NCBI GenBank assembly: GCA_002238685.1
Contig: MPMV01000021.1
Location: 1-64,000, forward strand
Direction: 5' to 3'
Length of the DNA: 64,000 nucleotides
Source of the DNA: a bacterium EF100-94H03 bin56
Lineage (GTDB): Bacteria > Pseudomonadota > Alphaproteobacteria > SP197
Positions 1 through 9,221 of the stretch are shown piece by piece (positions within the stretch are counted from its first letter, which is position 1; every line of letters begins with the position of its first letter). The translations under genes and the position numbers were made by a program. The notes below the pieces were generated by a model. The model was not told where the DNA came from. It did not search any database and saw only the letters and a program-made list of their open reading frames with translations.

Positions 1-8
1 AAAATTGA

Positions 9-21
9 ACCGAAAATCGGT
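9..21 (-). terminator. weak terminator-like hairpin after the leftward nuclease operon
   Basis: ACCGA-AAA-TCGGT forms a 5-bp stem with a 3-nt loop. Read on the minus strand it is followed by a T-rich tail (TCAATTTT), and it lies about 75 nt past the last stop codon of the leftward operon. The stem is short, so this is only a candidate. I see no gene in bases 1-94. Confidence 0.25.
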
Positions 22-94
22 CCGAAATACGGCAAAAATCCACCAGCAGAGTACTCAAGGTGATCATCGCTTGCGCCCCGGGCCGAATATGAGG

Positions 95-766
95 CTATCG
101 TTCCCCTTGGTGATGGATGCGGGCTAGCACCGTGGCAGCCGGGTCTATCGTACACAAAATGCCCGTGGACCTCATGAGGAGGTCATTCTTGTAGTCGAGC
201 ACGTTCGAGTAATCTGAGTGTGCTTTGCCATTCGGCGAGACTACCGGCGTTTCGTCGGTGACCGTGAACGATACCGGGCCACCTGATGCCACGAAGTGCG
301 TGCGGGACTCGGCCCAATACAACAAGTTGCTTTGAGTGTGAGCCAAGAACTCCCCGGGGGTCCCGACACCCGGAAAGTCCGGGAAGTCCTCGCTGATCGG
401 GCGATCCCATGGCTTAAGGGTGTACAGCTCGACACCGTGGCTCGAGGCCTTTGAGCAAGCCCCGTCTGTGTAGCCCGATGTTGAGAAGATGGCCTTGTGG
501 GTGACCTTCGGCATATCGGCCAGCTTCAGACTCAGTTGCTCAACTACCGTGACATCAAGCGGCTTGCCCTCGTGCTTTACCTCGGAAGCCTTGAACGCAG
601 TAACCTTTCCATCATTGCTGGTCAGCGTGACAGTTACATCGACGTCTCGCTCTTTGCCGGCGGCATCGTCCATCACCATGTCGCCAACGGTGACATCTAT
701 CGCGTCCGAATCATGTCGCAAGCAGCATAATCCGACCAGATACTGAACCATCATTGGTGTGAGCAT
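95..766 (-). CDS. Mrr-like PD-(D/E)xK nuclease
   Basis: This 223-residue protein looks like a restriction-endonuclease fold of the Mrr type. The likely active site is Asp41/Asp43 in RDVDVTV followed by Glu62-Val-Lys64 in SEVKHEG, with the downstream Q..L.LKL helix (77-82) and the FSTSGYTDGA strand (94-103) that is usual in Mrr-like domains. The C-terminal 100 residues are not recognised. ATG at 766 is preceded by AGGAG at 8 nt, and the gene starts 24 nt after the stop of the phospholipase D-type gene, so it is probably the last gene of the operon. It could cleave modified DNA or act as the effector of a multi-gene defence module; the fold call is firmer than the role. Confidence 0.7.
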   Translation of the reverse strand: MLTPMMVQYLVGLCCLRHDSDAIDVTVGDMVMDDAAGKERDVDVTVTLTSNDGKVTAFKASEVKHEGKPLDVTVVEQLSLKLADMPKVTHKAIFSTSGYTDGACSKASSHGVELYTLKPWDRPISEDFPDFPGVGTPGEFLAHTQSNLLYWAESRTHFVASGGPVSFTVTDETPVVSPNGKAHSDYSNVLDYKNDLLMRSTGILCTIDPAATVLARIHHQGER

Positions 767-790
767 GCGGAGTACTCCTAACGGCGAGCC

Positions 791-2254
791 TCAGCCGCGG
801 GCAGGATGCGTAGTGGAGAATTCGATTTCGATAGTCGATGACCGACCGCTTTCCGTCGTTCGGACGATGTTTTCCGGGATGCTTCCCTGCTGCCGCCACA
901 ACTTCCACATTGCGTCGCAAGCCATGGGGAACCGGTTCGGTTCCGTACCGCCGACCACGTTGCGGTGCAGGTCGCGTGCGACGATTCGGGTTGCCGGTCG
1001 CCCTGCCTGCCGACCCGCGTCGAGCATCCGCAGCAGTTCGCGGTTGAAATCGTCCTGCGTGAAGTCTGGGGATTGCTCGGGATGGGCAGGAAGTTCCGGC
1101 CAGTCGAGTTCACGGAGAACGTGGCGGCGAAGTTGTCCGTGGACATCGAATGCGGTTTGAAGCCGGGCGTTCAGCCATTCGAACCCCTCATGAGAAAGCT
1201 CAACGGCTGGCTGCTGCATAAAGGCGCGGCGCGGGTTCGTGTTGCCCTGACCGCGGGCCGCATTGCGCTGGGTGGGTGCGAAGGAATCGCTCCCGAGAGT
1301 GTTCATCAGTTCTGCCAGGGAAACACCGTTCTGCATGGTGCCCGCAACGAACTCGGCATGGTGAACGCGAATGTAGCGGGACCAGTGCGCCTTCCACGGG
1401 CGCCGCTCTATGTCGGCTGGGGTCGCGTCGTCCCGTCCCGCCTCGTGTTTGAGTGCGACGGCACGTCCGAAAATGCGGATATCCGGCCCTTTCACGAGCC
1501 GAGAAACGAACATGACAGCGCCGTCCTCGACGCCGGTAGGACGCCTGTTGCCTCCGGCAGGCCAGGCGAGTGCCCAGTGGCAGCCCGCGCGGTCGATTTC
1601 TTCAATGGTGGAGCAATCGAGAGGAACACGGTTGTTGCCCTCGCCGAGGAACTTGACGAACGCCTGGGGCGAATCCGCGAGTATCGGCGGCGGGCTGGAG
1701 TTGGGCAGGGGTTCGAAGCTCGCCACCGCTCCGAAGTCTCCAAGATCCCCCGATTCCGAGGGCGGCCCGCTCGATGCCAGATGGTTCGATAGCGTGTGGG
1801 TCCAGCTGTCGAGCTGCGAATGCTGCAAGTCGTTGCCGGCGTCCTGCCAGAGCGCGTCGAACCAGGTCAGGCAACGTTCGACGGCGGCGCTGTCTTCGGT
1901 GACGACCCCGAACTCTCGGTTTTCCGTGAGGCCGGCGCCGGTAAGGTTGGCCGACGTGATAATCGCCCGACCCGTTCCGAAAACGTAGAGCTTGGCGTGA
2001 AGGCCGTGAACGCCGCGAACGGCTCCACCGGCATCGAGAAACAGCCGGAGCGATTGGATATCGCTCACGCCTTCCGCAAAGTTGGGAAGGCTGAACCGCG
2101 TGATGACGCGGAGGAAAGGGAGCCGCGTGGACAATATCCGGGCGAGAGCACGGCGCTTGATGAAGGGGCAAACGATCCGAAGCGCGCCCGGATGCTGGAG
2201 AAGACCGTCGACGAATTCGGACTCCCAGCCCCTGTCGACCAAGCGAAATGTCAT
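791..2254 (-). CDS. phospholipase D-like nuclease-domain protein
   Basis: This 487-residue protein carries one phospholipase D catalytic signature near its N-terminus: His86-Ala-Lys88 in GLHAKLYVF followed by Ser101-Ala-Asn103-Leu in ITSANLTG. The Asp of a full HKD motif is Gly here, as happens in some PLD-type nucleases. With a single motif it would need to dimerise, as Nuc-type enzymes do. Residues 120-487 are not recognised and may recognise a target. An open frame continues to 2605, but that would run into the upstream gene, so I chose ATG 2254, which has AGGAG 10 nt upstream. It lies 52 nt after the HEPN-motif gene and 24 nt before the Mrr-like gene. Confidence 0.7.
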   Translation of the reverse strand: MTFRLVDRGWESEFVDGLLQHPGALRIVCPFIKRRALARILSTRLPFLRVITRFSLPNFAEGVSDIQSLRLFLDAGGAVRGVHGLHAKLYVFGTGRAIITSANLTGAGLTENREFGVVTEDSAAVERCLTWFDALWQDAGNDLQHSQLDSWTHTLSNHLASSGPPSESGDLGDFGAVASFEPLPNSSPPPILADSPQAFVKFLGEGNNRVPLDCSTIEEIDRAGCHWALAWPAGGNRRPTGVEDGAVMFVSRLVKGPDIRIFGRAVALKHEAGRDDATPADIERRPWKAHWSRYIRVHHAEFVAGTMQNGVSLAELMNTLGSDSFAPTQRNAARGQGNTNPRRAFMQQPAVELSHEGFEWLNARLQTAFDVHGQLRRHVLRELDWPELPAHPEQSPDFTQDDFNRELLRMLDAGRQAGRPATRIVARDLHRNVVGGTEPNRFPMACDAMWKLWRQQGSIPENIVRTTESGRSSTIEIEFSTTHPARG

Positions 2255-2306
2255 GGCGGGCGCTCTCCTGCACTGGTGTTCGAGGGTATTGAAGGATCGA
2301 CCGCCG

Positions 2307-4259
2307 TCAGGAGGGACCCGAATCGTTGTCAGCGGCTTCGGCGACGTCGGAAGGTGGGCCAGCCGCAGAGCTCCTTTCCCATCCCTGGTTCCCCTCCATC
2401 CATTCTGCCAGCCTGTCCCAGTGCTCAAACACATGCAGGCAACACAGCCGAAACATGAACCAACATGCGTAGATCGCGTCCGTTCCGTAGCATGCCGCGC
2501 CCGAGACCAGCCCGTGGGCCAGTTGATGCCTGAGTGCGGGGCCGCCCGGGAAATCGAACAGGTTCTCAATCTCGTAGACGATGGCGGTGCCGAATACACC
2601 CTCAAGCGAATCGCGATCTTTCTTGAGCATCACCGACAGGGTCCGGTTTTCCTGCGTCATGTCGCTCCGGATTGACGAGGGTTCATGGCCGGCTCGCTTC
2701 AGTATGTACCGTAGCGAGTTCTCCAACTGCGGGACGAGAATGTGCAGCGCGGAAATGAAGTCGCCGCCGAAAAAGCGCGTGAAGGCAAGACTGAAGAGGC
2801 CCTCCCGGTCGGCAGGCACAAACGGGCTCATTGCAACGAGGGGAATGAAGTCGCGCTGTTCGAGCGGATGTTCGAGTTGGATTAGGCGTCGCGCCGGGTC
2901 GATCAGCCCGGAAGCGACAAGCTGTCTGAGGAGTCCCTCGTTGCGGGCGATGCTATGGCGCAAAGCAAGGTCATCCGTCTCTGCATCCCCGACGAACGCG
3001 GGAGATTTGGAGATGACTTTGCCCTCGTCATCGACCATCAACATCGGAATCAAGCTGGAAAACAAGTTCTCCCCGGCCTGCCTTTGCGCTTCATCCCGCA
3101 ATTCATCCGGAGTTCGTGACGCCGCCAGTCGCGCGAAGACGGCGAATGCGTGCGGGAGACTCAGGCCTTCGACGCTTTCACGGGCGTCCTTGTGGAGTTC
3201 GGTCAGATCAACGGGTCTCGAAATGGTGCCCATCTGATCGCGTATCGAGACTTGCGCTTCGCGGAGGCGGGGCTCGAGTTCCCGTCGTCTTACATCGGTA
3301 TTCGGTATCCGCCTGAGCGCTTCGATGGCATGCATCAGGTGGCTGGCTGCGACGATTCCACGACCCCCGTCGCCTTCGGCCAATGCGACAAGACGTTCGG
3401 CTGCGGACACAAGGCAGCGGTCGCGCTCTGCGTCGTCGCCGGACTGCTGGTGGGCGCGCGCGGCAAGTTCCCATAGTTCGCGCGATGTGAAGGCGTCTGG
3501 CCCACCCGTTGCAGCCAGGGTCTCTGCGTTCCGGGCTACTGCGGTCGGTTCGTCAATGCGAAACCGAAGAGCGATTTCGGCAGCATTGAGGAACCCGCGA
3601 TGGTCCTTACGGTCGAATGCGTCCTGTGTCACGTCCGAAACCAGTGCCTTGAGGCGCGTTCCTTCGGGATCTTTCCAGCCTGTCGTCTTGGCGATCCGGC
3701 AAGCGCGGCACAGCATGTCGGCGCCGCCGCGGCTGCTGGCTGACGGGTTGTTTGGAAAAAACTCGGATCGGGCTTCGAGCACGGCTTGCACGGCATCGCT
3801 GTACGCATCGATAGCAAGTTGCGCCATGGCGTAGAGCTTGCGGTCGTTGAGCCAGGCCACGTCGGAGATCCTTGCCCTCAGGCCCGGATTCTGTAAACCG
3901 GGGGCAATTGCGGCGAACACGGCAGACTGGTCGCCCCGCAGGTCGCTGGGGATCATGCTGCGTGTCCCATCCGCCAGGACCATCATTGGCCCGTACGGCT
4001 CCGTACCGTCGTCGGGCTTGAAATGCATGCGGGTGACCTGAGCGAGAAGGCCAAAGACACGGGCAGCGCCTTCATCGCCCGATTGTGCGTGCTGCTTGCT
4101 GGCGGTTTCGTAGAGGCTGCCGAGATTCCGGCAATCAACGCTATTGCCGTCTCGAATTGGTGCTTCGACGTCCGCTTCCGCGAATTCTTCCGGGGTAACT
4201 GTCACGGCACCCGACGGCGCCTCATCCCCTTGCTGGTGTCCTGGTTCGTCCTCCGTCAT
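2307..4259 (-). CDS. large DUF4209-like protein with C-terminal HEPN RNase motif
   Basis: This 650-residue protein is mostly alpha-helical with TPR-like helical repeats in the first 350 residues. Near the C-terminus, Arg577-His-Gln-Leu-Ala-His582-Gly fits the Rx4H motif of HEPN ribonucleases and the conserved R....HG signature of DUF4209. The preceding helix (YEIENLFDFPGG) and following helices suit a HEPN bundle. The ATG at 4259 overlaps the upstream stop as ATGA, so translation is coupled to the RHH gene; the ATG at 4295 is less likely because it lies inside that gene. No signal peptide or membrane segment is visible. I infer an RNA-cleaving effector or sensor in a defence module. The motif is seen; the function is inferred. 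Confidence 0.6.
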   Translation of the reverse strand: MTEDEPGHQQGDEAPSGAVTVTPEEFAEADVEAPIRDGNSVDCRNLGSLYETASKQHAQSGDEGAARVFGLLAQVTRMHFKPDDGTEPYGPMMVLADGTRSMIPSDLRGDQSAVFAAIAPGLQNPGLRARISDVAWLNDRKLYAMAQLAIDAYSDAVQAVLEARSEFFPNNPSASSRGGADMLCRACRIAKTTGWKDPEGTRLKALVSDVTQDAFDRKDHRGFLNAAEIALRFRIDEPTAVARNAETLAATGGPDAFTSRELWELAARAHQQSGDDAERDRCLVSAAERLVALAEGDGGRGIVAASHLMHAIEALRRIPNTDVRRRELEPRLREAQVSIRDQMGTISRPVDLTELHKDARESVEGLSLPHAFAVFARLAASRTPDELRDEAQRQAGENLFSSLIPMLMVDDEGKVISKSPAFVGDAETDDLALRHSIARNEGLLRQLVASGLIDPARRLIQLEHPLEQRDFIPLVAMSPFVPADREGLFSLAFTRFFGGDFISALHILVPQLENSLRYILKRAGHEPSSIRSDMTQENRTLSVMLKKDRDSLEGVFGTAIVYEIENLFDFPGGPALRHQLAHGLVSGAACYGTDAIYACWFMFRLCCLHVFEHWDRLAEWMEGNQGWERSSAAGPPSDVAEAADNDSGPS

Positions 4260-4690
4260 TCGGCCAATTCCGTGTGGGCTGGCGTCGGCAGGCACATTCC
4301 GCTTTCAATAGCACGACAGCGGTCCGCCACTTGAAATGTACCGGGCGACTCCAAATGGCCGATTCTATCCGCACGTTCGCGGTAGATGGGCATCAACGAG
4401 ACCGGGCCAAGACTAGCAGTCTCTGGTCGCGGTGGATTGGCGAAGATGTTCGAAAGGGTCATTACGAGCGGCCTTCCCGTAGTCCGTCTTGTACTTGCCG
4501 GGTCGCGAGCGGCGTCGAGACATGCAGCGCGGACGAACTCGGCGGCGGCAAGGCCCCGGCGCTCGGCTGCCGCCTTGACCTCTTCCCATTCGGATCGGGA
4601 GAAGCAAATGCCTCTGGTCTTGCGCGGCTCGTCCGGCTGTTCCGCCTCCGCGACGCCGTGTTCGGGCGTCCATGAGTCCGTTGTCGTCAT
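4256..4690 (-). CDS. ribbon-helix-helix protein with C-terminal extension
   Basis: This 144-residue protein has an RHH fold at about residues 24-61: a basic strand RKTRGICFS, then SEWEEVKAAAERRG and the second helix LAAAEFVRAACLDAA. It resembles MobC-type relaxosome proteins and RHH antitoxins. The last 80 residues are not recognised. The ATG at 4690 is preceded by GAGGGG at a good distance; the open frame upstream to 4801 has no better start. It is the first gene of the four-gene leftward operon and overlaps the next gene by ATGA. It may repress the operon or neutralise the HEPN-motif protein; a link to plasmid mobilisation is the alternative. Confidence 0.6.
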   Translation of the reverse strand: MTTTDSWTPEHGVAEAEQPDEPRKTRGICFSRSEWEEVKAAAERRGLAAAEFVRAACLDAARDPASTRRTTGRPLVMTLSNIFANPPRPETASLGPVSLMPIYRERADRIGHLESPGTFQVADRCRAIESGMCLPTPAHTELAE

Positions 4691-5017
4691 GCAATCCCCT
4701 CTTCCGGTCGCCCGAACCGATCCCCAAATCGGGCAACCGGCCAGTGTGAAATGCGACGAATCTTCCCTGCGGTAGCTACCCGATCGACCGCCTCCTGGCA
4801 ATTCCGGCGGGCGAAAGGCACGGCGGCGAAGATGGTACGGGGCAAGGCCTGACGGATCACTGGGCCCAGTCGCTACGTCAGGGAAGCGGCGGAATCGAAT
4901 AAGTTGGATCGCGCATCGGAATCACGAAGTGTTCCCCGCCCGCGGGGATGAACAGTAAACCATCCCATTGCACACCGCGTTTCATGATATGCCGTTCACC
5001 AAGGGGTTTCGGCGAGG
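4691..5017. other. 327-bp gap between recombinases and nuclease operon
   Basis: I see no gene here. It must hold the promoter of the RHH operon, unless transcription reads through from the recombinases, and it contains the isolated CRISPR-like repeat at 4929-4953. No tRNA is visible. Confidence 0.5.
4929..4953 (+). repeat. solitary type I-E-like CRISPR repeat, 2-nt deletion
   Basis: The 25 bases begin GTGTTCCCCGC and end CGCGGGGATGAAC. This matches the common type I-E repeat of this form (GTGTTCCCCGC, then ACC, then CGCGGGGATGAACCG) apart from a 2-nt deletion in the centre and a different base just after it. I looked one repeat-plus-spacer length (about 61 nt) to each side and found no second copy, and there is no cas gene in the window. 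It may be an array relic, an integration footprint or a chance GC-rich hairpin. Confidence 0.5.
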
Positions 5018-6289
5018 TTATGCCCGTCGCGCATTGCTCTGTTCCCTGGTGCATCCTTTATGTGGGACAGCATTCGCCAAGGACGGTTGTCTGTTGCGGA
5101 TTCGCGCTCTGGATTCTCGACCGTCGAGGCACAGAGCAGACTGGGCACACAGTCGGGTGATGGCCACTCCGATCCGCTCGGCGGCGGCATCGACTTCTCT
5201 ATCGTGGACATGCGCATAGCGCAGCGTCATGGAAGAACGGCTGTGACCCAGAAGTCTGGCGACGATCGGCAATGGCACGCCACTCATGACTGCGTGCGAG
5301 GCAAAAGTGTGCCTCAAGTCATGCAAGCGAACATCCTCGATGCCGGCCTCCTTGCGGGCCCTGTACCATAGCCCGATCTCGCGTCCGCATGGCCTCGCAG
5401 GATCGCGCGGCGAGGGAAAGACCCAGTCGCTGCCCACCCTTGGTTGACGCTCGATGAGTTCCTGGGCGGCCGCCGACAGCCAGACTTCGCGCGGCCCGGT
5501 CTTTGCGTCGGTCAGCCTGAGTGTGGCGCCGTGGACCTCACACCATCGCAGTCTGACGATCTCGTTGCGTCGGCAGCCGGTGAGAAGGAGCAGACGGATC
5601 ATGTCGGCCTGAGGCTGGTACGACGGACGCTTTGCGACCATTGTGTCCAGCGTTTTGTAGAGGCGGGCGATTTCCTGCCTCGACAGGAACCGCGTCAGGG
5701 ACGGGCGCTTGTTTCGTTTCACGCCCCGCGTCGGGTCGCTGCTGATATGGCCGCTCGCGACGGCGAACTTCATGATGCGTCGTAACGTTGCCAGCGTCCT
5801 GTTGGCGCCGCCCGGTGCAATCTGGCTGTAGGCATCGAACCACACCTCGACCTGACGCGGTCCGATGTGATCGAGCCGCAGGGAACCGAATGACGGCAAC
5901 AACTGCCTTTTGAGTTGCCGGGCAAGGCATGCACGCCACCGAGGTTTGCAATGGTCGAGGAACGCTTCCGTCCATGGCCCTGTGGCGAAGGCAGAAAAGA
6001 GCGGGACCACCGCGTCAGCCTTGCGATCGCCGGATTGCTCCTGGACCATGAGGGTCAGGCAGTCTCGACGCGCCTCTTCGATGGTCTGCAGTGCGACGGG
6101 TCCGATGGTTGTGCGCGCCGGACGGCCGTTTCTGAAGCCCTGCCAGACATAAGCGCGATGGCCCGAGGACCGGACCCGCACGCCAAGGCCGGCGATACGG
6201 GTGTCCCAAACGGTATATTCGACCTCGCGTGGACGGAGTCTCTCGACGGCGGCGTCCGTCAACCGCACCCTCCTCGCCTCGGTTCTCAT
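5018..6289 (-). CDS. tyrosine recombinase/integrase (second of tandem pair)
   Basis: This 423-residue integrase has an N-terminal arm-binding DUF4102-like segment (1-80), a SAM-like core-binding domain (about 95-190) and a catalytic domain. The catalytic residues are visible: Arg240 in LLTGCRRNEI, Lys263 in DAKTGPRE, His323-x-x-Arg326 in LHDLRHTFA, His349 in LLGHS and the nucleophile Tyr358 in LRYAHVHD. It should cut and rejoin DNA at an attachment site. ATG 6289 overlaps the stop of the upstream integrase as ATGA. It is a diverged paralogue of that protein, so the pair may act as a heteromeric recombinase. The last 45 residues are Arg-rich and not family-typical. Confidence 0.9.
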   Translation of the reverse strand: MRTEARRVRLTDAAVERLRPREVEYTVWDTRIAGLGVRVRSSGHRAYVWQGFRNGRPARTTIGPVALQTIEEARRDCLTLMVQEQSGDRKADAVVPLFSAFATGPWTEAFLDHCKPRWRACLARQLKRQLLPSFGSLRLDHIGPRQVEVWFDAYSQIAPGGANRTLATLRRIMKFAVASGHISSDPTRGVKRNKRPSLTRFLSRQEIARLYKTLDTMVAKRPSYQPQADMIRLLLLTGCRRNEIVRLRWCEVHGATLRLTDAKTGPREVWLSAAAQELIERQPRVGSDWVFPSPRDPARPCGREIGLWYRARKEAGIEDVRLHDLRHTFASHAVMSGVPLPIVARLLGHSRSSMTLRYAHVHDREVDAAAERIGVAITRLCAQSALCLDGRESRARIRNRQPSLANAVPHKGCTREQSNARRA

Positions 6290-7407
6290 GCCAGACCCTC
6301 CGAAAGGACCGGCGCGACGGCATCGATGGCCTCTCGAACTGCCCCGTCGTGGAGATGCGTATAGCGCAGGGTCGTGGACGCCTTGCCGTGGCCAAGGAGT
6401 TTGCCGATGGTGAGGATGGTCTCGCCATTCTGGAGCGCAACGCTGGCATAGCTGTGACGAAGGTCGTGCAGGCGGACGTCGTTCAATCCGGCCTCCGCGC
6501 GAATCCGCCACCAGAATCGGTCGAGATGGAACGGCTTCGGATTTGTTGCCGAAAAGACCCATCTATTCTTCCGCGGGAGGTTGTCGAGAACATCGCGCGC
6601 GGCTTGTGACAGCCAGACGGTGCGCGGGCCGGTCTTGCTGTCGGGTAGGAACAACTTGCCTTCGCGGTAATCCGCCCATCTCAGCATGATGATCTCGCTC
6701 TTGCGACAGCCCGTCAGGAGAAGCAACTCAACGGCAGCGGTATGCAACGGGTGTCGCGATCGATGGTGTGCCAGAACGGCAGCGAGACTGCGGTACTCCT
6801 CCGGCAGGAGGAACCGTTCGCGTCTGGTCTCGCGGTAGCGGCGGATACCGACACAGGGGTTGCTGTTCTCCGGCCTGTAGCCCCAGGATTCGGCCTTCTG
6901 CATGATGACGGAAAGGACCGGTGCAGAGCGATTTGCCGCTGCGGGCTTTGCATGAAGGGACCGGAACCAGGTTGCGACGTCCTGCCGGGTGATGGCGCTG
7001 ATCATGCGGCCCGTGAAGAAGGGCAGGATCTGCCGGTGAAGATAGATCCGGTTGGCCTTGAGCGTGCCGGGCTTCCAGAGCCGTTCGTAGTGGACAAGGA
7101 CGTCCTGTGCGACGGTCTCGAAGAGTGCGTCTTTCTCTATCCCGGAATCTGCAGGGTCACCGTTCCTGTACGTCGCCAGCATCGTGCGTGCCCGTCGACG
7201 TGCCTGCGCCACGGTCACGGTGCCGGCATCGTCGATAGTCTTCCAGAGTCTGCGGCCCTCGTGCTGAGAGTGAATGAAGTAGCGTCTGGCGCCCGAGGGC
7301 ATGATGCGGATGCCAAAGCCCTTCAGTTCGGTATCGCGCACATCCAGGATGGCCTTCTTTGGCTTGAGCCTATCGACCCGTTGCTGGGTGAGGTGCATTC
7401 TGGCCAT
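6286..7407 (-). CDS. tyrosine recombinase/integrase (first of tandem pair)
   Basis: This 373-residue integrase is complete. It has an N-terminal DUF4102-like arm-binding region (1-75), a core-binding domain (95-190) and a catalytic domain with Arg235 in LLTGCRKSEI, Lys258 in DSKTGPR, His314-x-x-Arg317 in LHDLRHSYA, His340 in LLGHG and Tyr349 in LRYTHLHD. ATG 7407 has GGAGGA 7 nt upstream. It is the most upstream gene of the leftward island, and the 236-bp gap before the rightward binding-protein gene is the natural place to look for the element end and attachment site. Overlap with the next integrase implies coordinated synthesis. Confidence 0.92.
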   Translation of the reverse strand: MARMHLTQQRVDRLKPKKAILDVRDTELKGFGIRIMPSGARRYFIHSQHEGRRLWKTIDDAGTVTVAQARRRARTMLATYRNGDPADSGIEKDALFETVAQDVLVHYERLWKPGTLKANRIYLHRQILPFFTGRMISAITRQDVATWFRSLHAKPAAANRSAPVLSVIMQKAESWGYRPENSNPCVGIRRYRETRRERFLLPEEYRSLAAVLAHHRSRHPLHTAAVELLLLTGCRKSEIIMLRWADYREGKLFLPDSKTGPRTVWLSQAARDVLDNLPRKNRWVFSATNPKPFHLDRFWWRIRAEAGLNDVRLHDLRHSYASVALQNGETILTIGKLLGHGKASTTLRYTHLHDGAVREAIDAVAPVLSEGLA

Positions 7408-7643
7408 GATTGTTCCTCCGGTGTCTGTGACGTTGGGGGAAGAAAGGCATCGCCCTTCCGTCCATAGTTGCAGACACGGGAAAAATTATGTACGTTAAAT
7501 CCGCCGTTTAGCACCACAGGTGCGGCGTCCCGTGTAGCTGCACCACCTGGCACGTGGCAGGGGTTTGCCGGGCAACGGACCGGATTGATCAGGTGGCGAC
7601 GCTGACTATTGTGACACCGGGATCACCACCGTCAGGAGGACAC
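7408..7643. other. probable island boundary region
   Basis: No gene is visible. The segment holds an inverted pair GTGTCTG (about 7424) and CAGACAC (about 7471) in front of the integrase genes, a short A/T-rich stretch near 7480-7500, and the small palindrome GCACC-ACA-GGTGC at 7511-7523 with a related GCACCACC nearby. These could be recombinase or regulator sites. An attachment core cannot be identified because the other end of the element is outside the window. Confidence 0.3.
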
Positions 7644-9221
7644 ATGAAACATCAACGCAAGCCGGCTATCGAATCGGGGCTCGACAGGCGCCATTTCATG
7701 AACGCGGCCATGGCAACGGGCATGACCGCTGCCGCGGCTTCGGCGCTGTGGACCCGAACGGCTCATGCAGCACCTTCTCACGGCGGGCATGTGACCATCG
7801 GCACGGATGGCGGCGCCTCAGTCGACACGCTCGATCCGATCAAGGCGATCGGGACCGATCACGTGACCATGGCGGCTCTGTGCTGCTTCGACGCCCTGAC
7901 GGAACTCCAGGCGGACGGAACTCCGGTGGGCAGTCTCGCCGAGAGCTGGGGGACCTCGACGGACGGACGGACATGGACCTTCAAACTGCGCGAAGCGGAG
8001 TTCCACAACGGCAAGACGGTGACAGCCGATGATGTCGTCTGGTCACTCAATCGCCACCTCAGCGACGACAATACCTATGCGGAAGGCAAGCAGATCGTCG
8101 GCTCCCTCGAGGAACTGAAGTCCGACGGACCCGACACTGTCGTCATGGTGCAAAGGGAGGTCAACTTCGATCTGCCCGTTCATCTGTCAGCCTTCGGCCT
8201 GCTGATCGGACCCGAGGAAACGACCGACTGGGAACGGGGAGTCGGCTCCGGGCCGTACGTTCTCGATGAGTTCACCCCCGGCGTGCGTTTCAGCGGCCAC
8301 AAGTACGGAAACTTCTACCGGGACGACCAGGGCTTCTTTGATTCGGTGGAACTGCTCAACATCGAGGATGCGTCGTCGCGCGCGAGCGCACTCCTGAGCG
8401 GGTCAGCCGACGTCATATCCCAGCCGGATGCGCGTACCGCCGGTCTCCTTGGAAGCACCGATGGCGTGAGCCTGCTGGAGGCTCCCGGAACACAGCACTA
8501 CACCACCGCCATGCGCACCGACGTCGATCCCTTCACCGACAATCACATCCGCCTTGCGGTCAAGTACGGCATCAGGCGCCAGGAAATCGTCGACAAGGTG
8601 TTCGGCGGGTTTGGCTATGTTGGCAACGACCATCCGATCGGCCGCAGCCAGCAGTTCTTCAACACGGACCTGCCGCAGCGCCAGTACGATCCGGACAAGG
8701 CCGCGTGGCACCTGAAGGAAGCCGGTCTGGACAGGATCGCCCTCGAGCTGAAGGCCAGCGACGGCGCCTTCGGCGGCTCGGTCGACATGGGTGTGCTCAT
8801 GGCCGAATCGATGGCGCCGGCGGGTATCGACGTCACCGTCGACCGGGTGCCGGGTGACGGATACTGGTCGGAGGTCTGGCTGGTGGCACCCTGGTGCTGC
8901 GTCTACTGGAACGGCCGCCCGACCATCGACTGGATGCTGACGTCGGCCTACATCTCGACATCGTCCTGGAATGACACCTACTTCACGAACGAACGTTTCG
9001 ATTCCCTGCTCGCCGCCGCCAGGAGTGAACCCGACCAGGCGCTGCGCCGGGACATGTACTTCGAACTCCAGGAGATTCTCAACATGGAGGGTGGCACCAC
9101 CGTCATTGCCTTCGCCAGTTCCCTCATCGGCGCCTCGGACGCCCTGGGTCACGGCGAAATCAGCGGCAACCGTCGCATGGACGACGGCAGGCTGGCGCGG
9201 CGCTGGTGGTTTGTGGCCTGA
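7644..9221 (+). CDS. Tat-exported ABC substrate-binding protein, family 5 (peptide/opine type)
   Basis: This 525-residue periplasmic binding protein belongs to the DppA/OppA family (SBP_bac_5). A twin-arginine signal (GLDRRHFMNAAMATG, residues 13-27, hydrophobic stretch, then AHA-A) indicates folded export. Family landmarks are LAESWGTSTDGRTWTFKLRE and the FHNGKTVTADDVVWSL motif. ATG 7644 has AGGAGG 7 nt upstream; an in-frame start at 7554 is unlikely. No permease or ATPase gene follows; the next gene is a CocE/NonD hydrolase. The substrate may be a peptide or amide, but this is inferred from neighbours only. It is a distant paralogue of the binding protein at 59227. Confidence 0.9.
   Translation: MKHQRKPAIESGLDRRHFMNAAMATGMTAAAASALWTRTAHAAPSHGGHVTIGTDGGASVDTLDPIKAIGTDHVTMAALCCFDALTELQADGTPVGSLAESWGTSTDGRTWTFKLREAEFHNGKTVTADDVVWSLNRHLSDDNTYAEGKQIVGSLEELKSDGPDTVVMVQREVNFDLPVHLSAFGLLIGPEETTDWERGVGSGPYVLDEFTPGVRFSGHKYGNFYRDDQGFFDSVELLNIEDASSRASALLSGSADVISQPDARTAGLLGSTDGVSLLEAPGTQHYTTAMRTDVDPFTDNHIRLAVKYGIRRQEIVDKVFGGFGYVGNDHPIGRSQQFFNTDLPQRQYDPDKAAWHLKEAGLDRIALELKASDGAFGGSVDMGVLMAESMAPAGIDVTVDRVPGDGYWSEVWLVAPWCCVYWNGRPTIDWMLTSAYISTSSWNDTYFTNERFDSLLAAARSEPDQALRRDMYFELQEILNMEGGTTVIAFASSLIGASDALGHGEISGNRRMDDGRLARRWWFVA

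Follow-up and report, generated by a model that had tools for sequence, protein, structure and literature searches.

The PADLOC model PDC-S39, which stands for a candidate defence family, is listed as a single gene, and the 'S' in its name presumably stands for single. PMC11878078 contains a PADLOC listing for P. aeruginosa PAO1 in which one of the six defence systems is a PDC-S39. PMC3710099 counts DUF4209 among the HEPN families and predicts the C6orf70/DUF4209 family to be active. For the second system considered here, DISARM, the DISARM paper (PMC9142583) calls DrmC dispensable and proposes a mix-and-match use of PLD nucleases. We compared with these systems a row of four genes at 95-4690 in the first 64,000 nucleotides (nt) of contig MPMV01000021.1 of assembly GCA_002238685.1 (contig labelled C76, 72,119 bp); this whole stretch is called the window. 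Two of the four genes are read here as a HEPN-PLD cassette, probably anti-phage and carried by a mobile element, and we put the probability of this reading at roughly 0.58. The parts themselves are known or appear in listings; we had not met their combination before, and our literature search brought up no description of the pair.

The open reading frame (ORF) listing, the sequence and its translation all bore out a row of four genes on the minus strand. The ribbon-helix-helix (RHH)-like gene (4690-4256; 144 amino acids (aa), protein P0004) comes first and shares an ATGA overlap with the start of the HEPN gene (4259-2307; 650 aa), the core of the cassette and its predicted RNase effector. After a gap of 52 nt follows its partner, the PLD gene (2254-791; 487 aa, protein P0002), a predicted DNase, and after another 24 nt the fourth gene (766-95; 223 aa, protein P0003). 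The cassette reading is based on the same-strand adjacency of HEPN and PLD, their joint retention in a second locus (L030), the conserved motifs of both proteins and their matches to defence models.

In L030, a HEPN copy 85% identical and a PLD copy 87% identical to those of the window adjoin each other. The block common to the two loci (window 824-4822, minus strand) contains the HEPN gene, the PLD gene and a leader, with nucleotide identities of 88% over 824-4293 and 74% over 4596-4822. The RHH core falls in the intervening stretch 4294-4595, which is lacking from L030; there, the RHH gene is a frameshifted remnant next to an open HEPN frame, and the PLD frame is open too. On the other side, the homology runs out where PLD ends, and the fourth gene lies outside the common block. 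Between the window and L030, the ratio of nonsynonymous to synonymous divergence (dN/dS) was 0.25 for HEPN (dS 0.30) and 0.20 for PLD (dS 0.37). The homology block and the low dN/dS therefore point to HEPN and PLD having been retained together while the RHH gene decayed and the downstream gene differs. In the fourth gene's place, L030 carries a gene for a 163-aa protein (L030 6396-6887), which matched neither PADLOC nor Pfam.

The sequence-only reading had proposed a possible undescribed four-gene defence operon and had named co-occurrence beforehand as one check. This was examined first around relatives of the PLD gene, in 46 loci of the genome_contigs set that were confirmed from a scan with the PLD alignment by one of two peptide patterns; further relatives may lack both patterns. 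The flanks extended to the full 8 kb in 24 of them, to at least 2.5 kb upstream in 45 and to at least 1.5 kb downstream in 43. By tblastn, HEPN was present in a single one of these loci, L030 (85% identity), while neither RHH nor P0003 was found in any of the 46 (E <= 0.01). The second set, 18 further HEPN loci, comprised nine plasmid neighbourhoods (H1-H5, H7, H19, H20 and H23 of 27), eight genome flanks and the phage record H69; genomes G122, G258 and G462 stood outside it, and H68 (2,192 bp) was aligned but not counted. These 18 loci are not all independent, because L078 and L082 are near-identical. None of the 18 gave a tblastn match to PLD, RHH or P0003 (E <= 0.05, though tblastn has little power for a protein as short as RHH). 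Thus the set of four was held by 0/46 PLD loci and 0/18 further HEPN loci, and an undescribed, recurring four-gene system was rejected on this ground. A true four-gene system, with an RHH regulator, one RNase and two DNases acting jointly, would suit the gene order, the ATGA coupling and the short gaps of the window; however, L030 does without the RHH core and the fourth gene while its HEPN and PLD frames are open, and P0003 has no relatives in the plasmid, phage, phylum-sample and viral_contigs collections described below. We regard that system as very improbable.

Among the loci examined, HEPN and PLD relatives almost always occur apart. This bears on another explanation, namely that the row is a chance series of independently acquired cargo, made up of an orphan and of HEPN and PLD genes that each stand alone, with no common mechanism. 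It would account for the two genes standing together in just 1/46 PLD loci and 0/18 further HEPN loci, and for PLD being found near several other systems. It fits less well with the short gaps, the single strand and the joint low-dN/dS retention of the pair in L030 despite the change of both flanks. On balance, independent cargo seems rather unlikely, and the two-gene cassette is preferred.

The HEPN protein combines a DUF7380 part, matched by Pfam at 164.4 bits (cut-off 27), with a C-terminal DUF4209/HEPN part. The PADLOC hidden Markov model (HMM) for PDC-S39 matched it over its full length (ORF residues 32-625, profile positions 7-603 of 615, E 5.8e-120), and the L030 copy gave a similar value (E 2.8e-119). 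The predicted C-terminal RHxxxH motif of HEPN (R577-H-x3-H582) was confirmed, as each of the 14 aligned proteins, the window protein among them, has R577 and H582; G583 is likewise invariant, and H578 is kept in 11 of the 14. The window protein thus resembles PDC-S39 in the full-length match and the invariant RxxxxH, and differs in that its gene precedes a PLD nuclease gene, an order that we saw again in L030 alone. No paper naming DUF7380 was found in our literature search.

Relatives of the HEPN protein turned up in 27 of 72,556 plasmid records and in 2 of the 50,697 phages searched. Among genomes, matches with E <= 0.001, some of them partial, were present in 7 of the 288 others that make up the class sample and in 5 of the 397 others from the phylum. 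Scans of viral_contigs with P0001, P0003 and A1 gave no relatives. In a P2-like phage, the HEPN gene sits, together with one small ORF, between the replication endonuclease gene gpA and the portal gene, a position that we take to be a known cargo slot of P2, and a Salmonella plasmid record has the identical gene order around its HEPN gene. In 54 of 5,426 E. coli genomes, the chromosome carries a gene with an identity of 99% or more to that of the P2-like phage. Some HEPN genes lie near defence-like genes, such as a restriction endonuclease gene (L004, L080) or methyltransferase and helicase genes (L081). In a Mesorhizobium plasmid (L005, 8001-12434), the HEPN homology is split across the two sides of an IS66 element.

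For the PLD protein, the call of a PLD-type nuclease stood up, with a Pfam match to PF13091 (PLDc_2) of 34.6 bits, above the cut-off of 27, and a confident nuclease fold. It has a single H-x-K...N...E site, whose residues H86, K88, N103 and E114 are invariant in 40/40 aligned proteins (alignment A5, made of 39 locus proteins and P0002, with 7 of the 46 loci excluded as partial or containing a stop); we take the catalytic roles of these residues to be known from PLD nucleases. The predicted structure had a confidence (predicted local distance difference test, pLDDT) of 87.9. Comparison by VIA-align matched the first ~190 residues of the model (within 1-192) to SauUSI (7clg; Z 17.7, root-mean-square deviation (rmsd) 2.2, 147 aligned), Nuc (1byr; Z 16.6, rmsd 2.4, 141 aligned), BfiI (2c1l; Z 15.6, rmsd 2.7, 149 aligned) and NgoAVII (4rct; Z 14.2, rmsd 2.8, 148 aligned). 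The fold search bore on residues 1-192, with the middle and C-terminal parts barely probed. The likeness to SauUSI, BfiI and NgoAVII is one of the nuclease fold in this part, whereas the window protein has neither a fused helicase nor a recognised specificity domain. Sequence searches of the PDB had no hit with P0002; P0003 brought up one match (E 0.74), and A4 two weak ones (E 0.026 and 0.038), both to designed proteins. The PLD protein also has a C-terminal extension (about residues 393-487, window 791-1078), which among the 46 loci was matched only in L030, L031 and L033 and had no Pfam match.

The PLD protein matched the PADLOC model of DrmC (PDLC02599) with E 1.2e-132 over about residues 2-388, whereas its 38.7 bits with the NCBIfam model DISARM_DrmC_I lie below the cut-off of 133. 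MZB is the domain that marks DrmB, and it had no match in the window's own genome, which is 98.45% complete. From 95 to 7407, a scan of six genes that is bounded downstream by the contig end showed no DrmA, DrmB or methyltransferase gene. With DrmA and DrmB missing there and the NCBIfam score below cut-off, identity with DISARM was rejected.

The neighbours of the PLD relatives are diverse. Gene calls in these loci were made by ORF length alone, and in this way the PLD gene was missed in L030, L036, L055 and L074 and was split into two ORFs in L073. Type I restriction-modification (R-M) genes occur close to PLD in 16 of the 46 loci (blastp clusters c1-c4, whose representatives are HsdS, HsdM and HsdR by Pfam). 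In a PADLOC scan that covered 79 of the 106 listed neighbours, 13 matched the type I specificity model and 16 the type I methyltransferase model. Elsewhere, IetA and IetS precede PLD in L073, L075 shares these gene clusters with it, and a PD-Lambda-3_B gene precedes PLD in L051. In L062-L064, one clustered gene precedes PLD; the L064 copy, the one checked among the three, reached 24.1 bits for Abi_2 (cut-off 25.6) and matched PADLOC PD-T4-5 with E 5.2e-16. This pattern of neighbours fits the mix-and-match idea of the DISARM paper without proving it.

An arrangement close to that of the window is the pair of an Abi_2-like HEPN gene and a PLD gene, known from Ti plasmids of Agrobacterium and from plasmids of Rhizobium (L002, L003, L062-L064). 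Here too a gene with an RNxxxH motif, recognised by eye, stands directly before a PLD relative, which has 42-44% identity to P0002; in contrast to the window, the HEPN-like protein belongs to another family and a gene of ~130 aa follows. On these plasmids and on related contigs, the loci present a trio of the Abi_2-like HEPN gene, the PLD relative and a gene of 114 to 130 aa, and the third gene of the L064 trio (~130 aa) matched neither Pfam nor PADLOC.

The RHH-like gene had a Pfam match to a NikA-like family that fell below threshold (21.6 against a cut-off of 27), and P0004 had no match among the 72,556 plasmids (E <= 0.1). Its residues 1-61 are 48% identical to a protein of a genome of the same genus (G261), with E 7e-11 in the two-protein comparison and 4.3e-8 in the genome search. 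There, a SLOG (YspA) gene lies on the same strand ~540 nt upstream of the RHH relative, and a search of the G261 genome gave no HEPN match. L030 has a homologue of the G261 SLOG gene (60% identical) ~1.5 kb before its RHH remnant, with an additional 35-nt match between the two in the same order as in G261; the G261 SLOG protein had no match in the window. Because the relative lies near SLOG in G261 and a SLOG homologue precedes the remnant in L030, the RHH-like gene is probably, as judged from these sequence comparisons, part of the carrier element and outside the defence unit.

The ATGA coupling, and the position of a small DNA-binding-like gene ahead of a candidate RNase toxin, also suit an RHH-HEPN toxin-antitoxin pair, in which HEPN would be the RNase toxin, RHH the antitoxin and repressor, and PLD a passenger. 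Small upstream genes at some HEPN loci are in line with this as well; their family is not recognised, and in L077, for example, such a gene of 91 aa lies 81 nt ahead of HEPN. However, the RHH remnant in L030 is frameshifted beside an open HEPN frame, P0004 was unmatched in the 18 other HEPN loci (with the limit on short proteins given above), and G261, which holds the RHH relative, gave no HEPN match. We consider a toxin-antitoxin pair improbable, and RHH as a fixed antitoxin was rejected, given the remnant in L030 and the relative near the SLOG gene.

The fourth gene was an orphan in every comparison. The Mrr-like, PD-(D/E)xK call had been made by eye (E62-V-K64). P0003 matched no family in Pfam or PADLOC (E <= 1) or in NCBIfam or PHROGs (E <= 0.01), and its structure model, with a pLDDT of 30.9, was too low for use. 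No relatives were found in the 72,556 plasmids, the 50,697 phages or a pattern scan of viral_contigs, nor in 15 other genomes of the order and 397 others of the phylum sample; in genome_contigs, where it was sought only in the 46 PLD loci, there was none. Most likely, the fourth gene is separate cargo.

The claim of a mobile anti-phage module is thus retained in part: the link to defence is plausible from family membership (the PDC-S39 and DrmC models) and from the conserved sites, while the four-gene unit fails in co-occurrence. As to the set having no named system, two of the four genes match models of a defence database. Several points weigh against the cassette reading. The DUF4209 match in the HEPN protein reached 19.6 bits, under the cut-off of 22.3, and the literature search (PDC-S39, DUF7380, DUF4209) found no reported test of PDC-S39. 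The defence context of PLD is not universal, because 30 of the 46 loci have no type I R-M cluster by the clustering used and the gene ahead of PLD in L032 encodes a lysine--tRNA ligase. The downstream side of the cassette is the contig end, and as the window starts at contig base 1, a view past it is impossible. Finally, the pairing is known from a single further locus, L030, which lies on a contig of a metagenome-assembled genome and is close to the window's copy; it may reflect a single ancestral event instead of a partnership under selection, and an assembly fault in L030 is possible.

Concerning the carrier, recombinases had been noted beside the operon, and two tyrosine recombinase genes (Pfam PF00589) do lie upstream on the same strand. 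They are overlapping ORFs, at longest 7407-6286 and 6562-5018, with matches to the arm-binding domain, one of which was below cut-off. A promoter scan found none, and terminators were fewer than in shuffled sequences; an Rfam scan of 1-9000 gave a single match, far under its gathering score.

Alone between the recombinase genes and the RHH-like gene lies a single repeat (4929-4955, plus strand) resembling those of clustered regularly interspaced short palindromic repeats (CRISPR), presumably of type I-E. It equals the repeat of an array on contig C38 of the same genome (11 copies, 61-nt spacing) minus a 2-nt loop and with a substitution near each end. At up to one mismatch, it was found in its own genome only and in 0/384 other genomes of the class. 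The genome has three CRISPR-like arrays (L110-L112: C38 25871-26505, C38 2041-2187 and C58 14810-14895), one regular and the others with degenerate repeats. An antitoxin in the form of a CRISPR RNA (crRNA) is an existing idea, with CreA as the example; a CreA-like antitoxin was rejected here, as there is one repeat only and the other best local matches reached 16/29 against up to 19 in shuffles.

In the HEPN-PLD cassette as we picture it, HEPN would be the principal effector, a protein that may sense infection through its N-terminal DUF7380 part and then free the C-terminal HEPN RNase, which would cut RNA and so stop the phage and perhaps the cell too. The PLD protein would act as an accessory, exchangeable DNA nuclease, one whose relatives in other loci have genes of type I R-M, of IetAS or of an Abi_2-like HEPN protein close by. 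The RHH-like gene, which would have come from the carrier element and now stands ahead of the cassette, may set its expression. A more general proposal, which we advance only tentatively, is that the PLD family is a portable effector recruited by adjacency to type I R-M, IetAS, Abi_2-like HEPN and DUF7380-HEPN genes, so that in the window one trigger would fire both an RNase and a DNase. Bolder still, and prompted by position alone, is the idea that the orphan repeat at 4929-4955 might put the cassette under the control of Cascade.

The row that looked like one defence system can be separated into a probable carrier gene, an orphan and two defence parts, both already known, which have been joined at least once. 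The HEPN family reaches from a P2-like phage to the chromosomes of E. coli and, according to the PADLOC listing in PMC11878078, to P. aeruginosa PAO1. A PLD protein whose neighbours change in this way raises the question of whether unrelated sensors can share a single accessory DNase.

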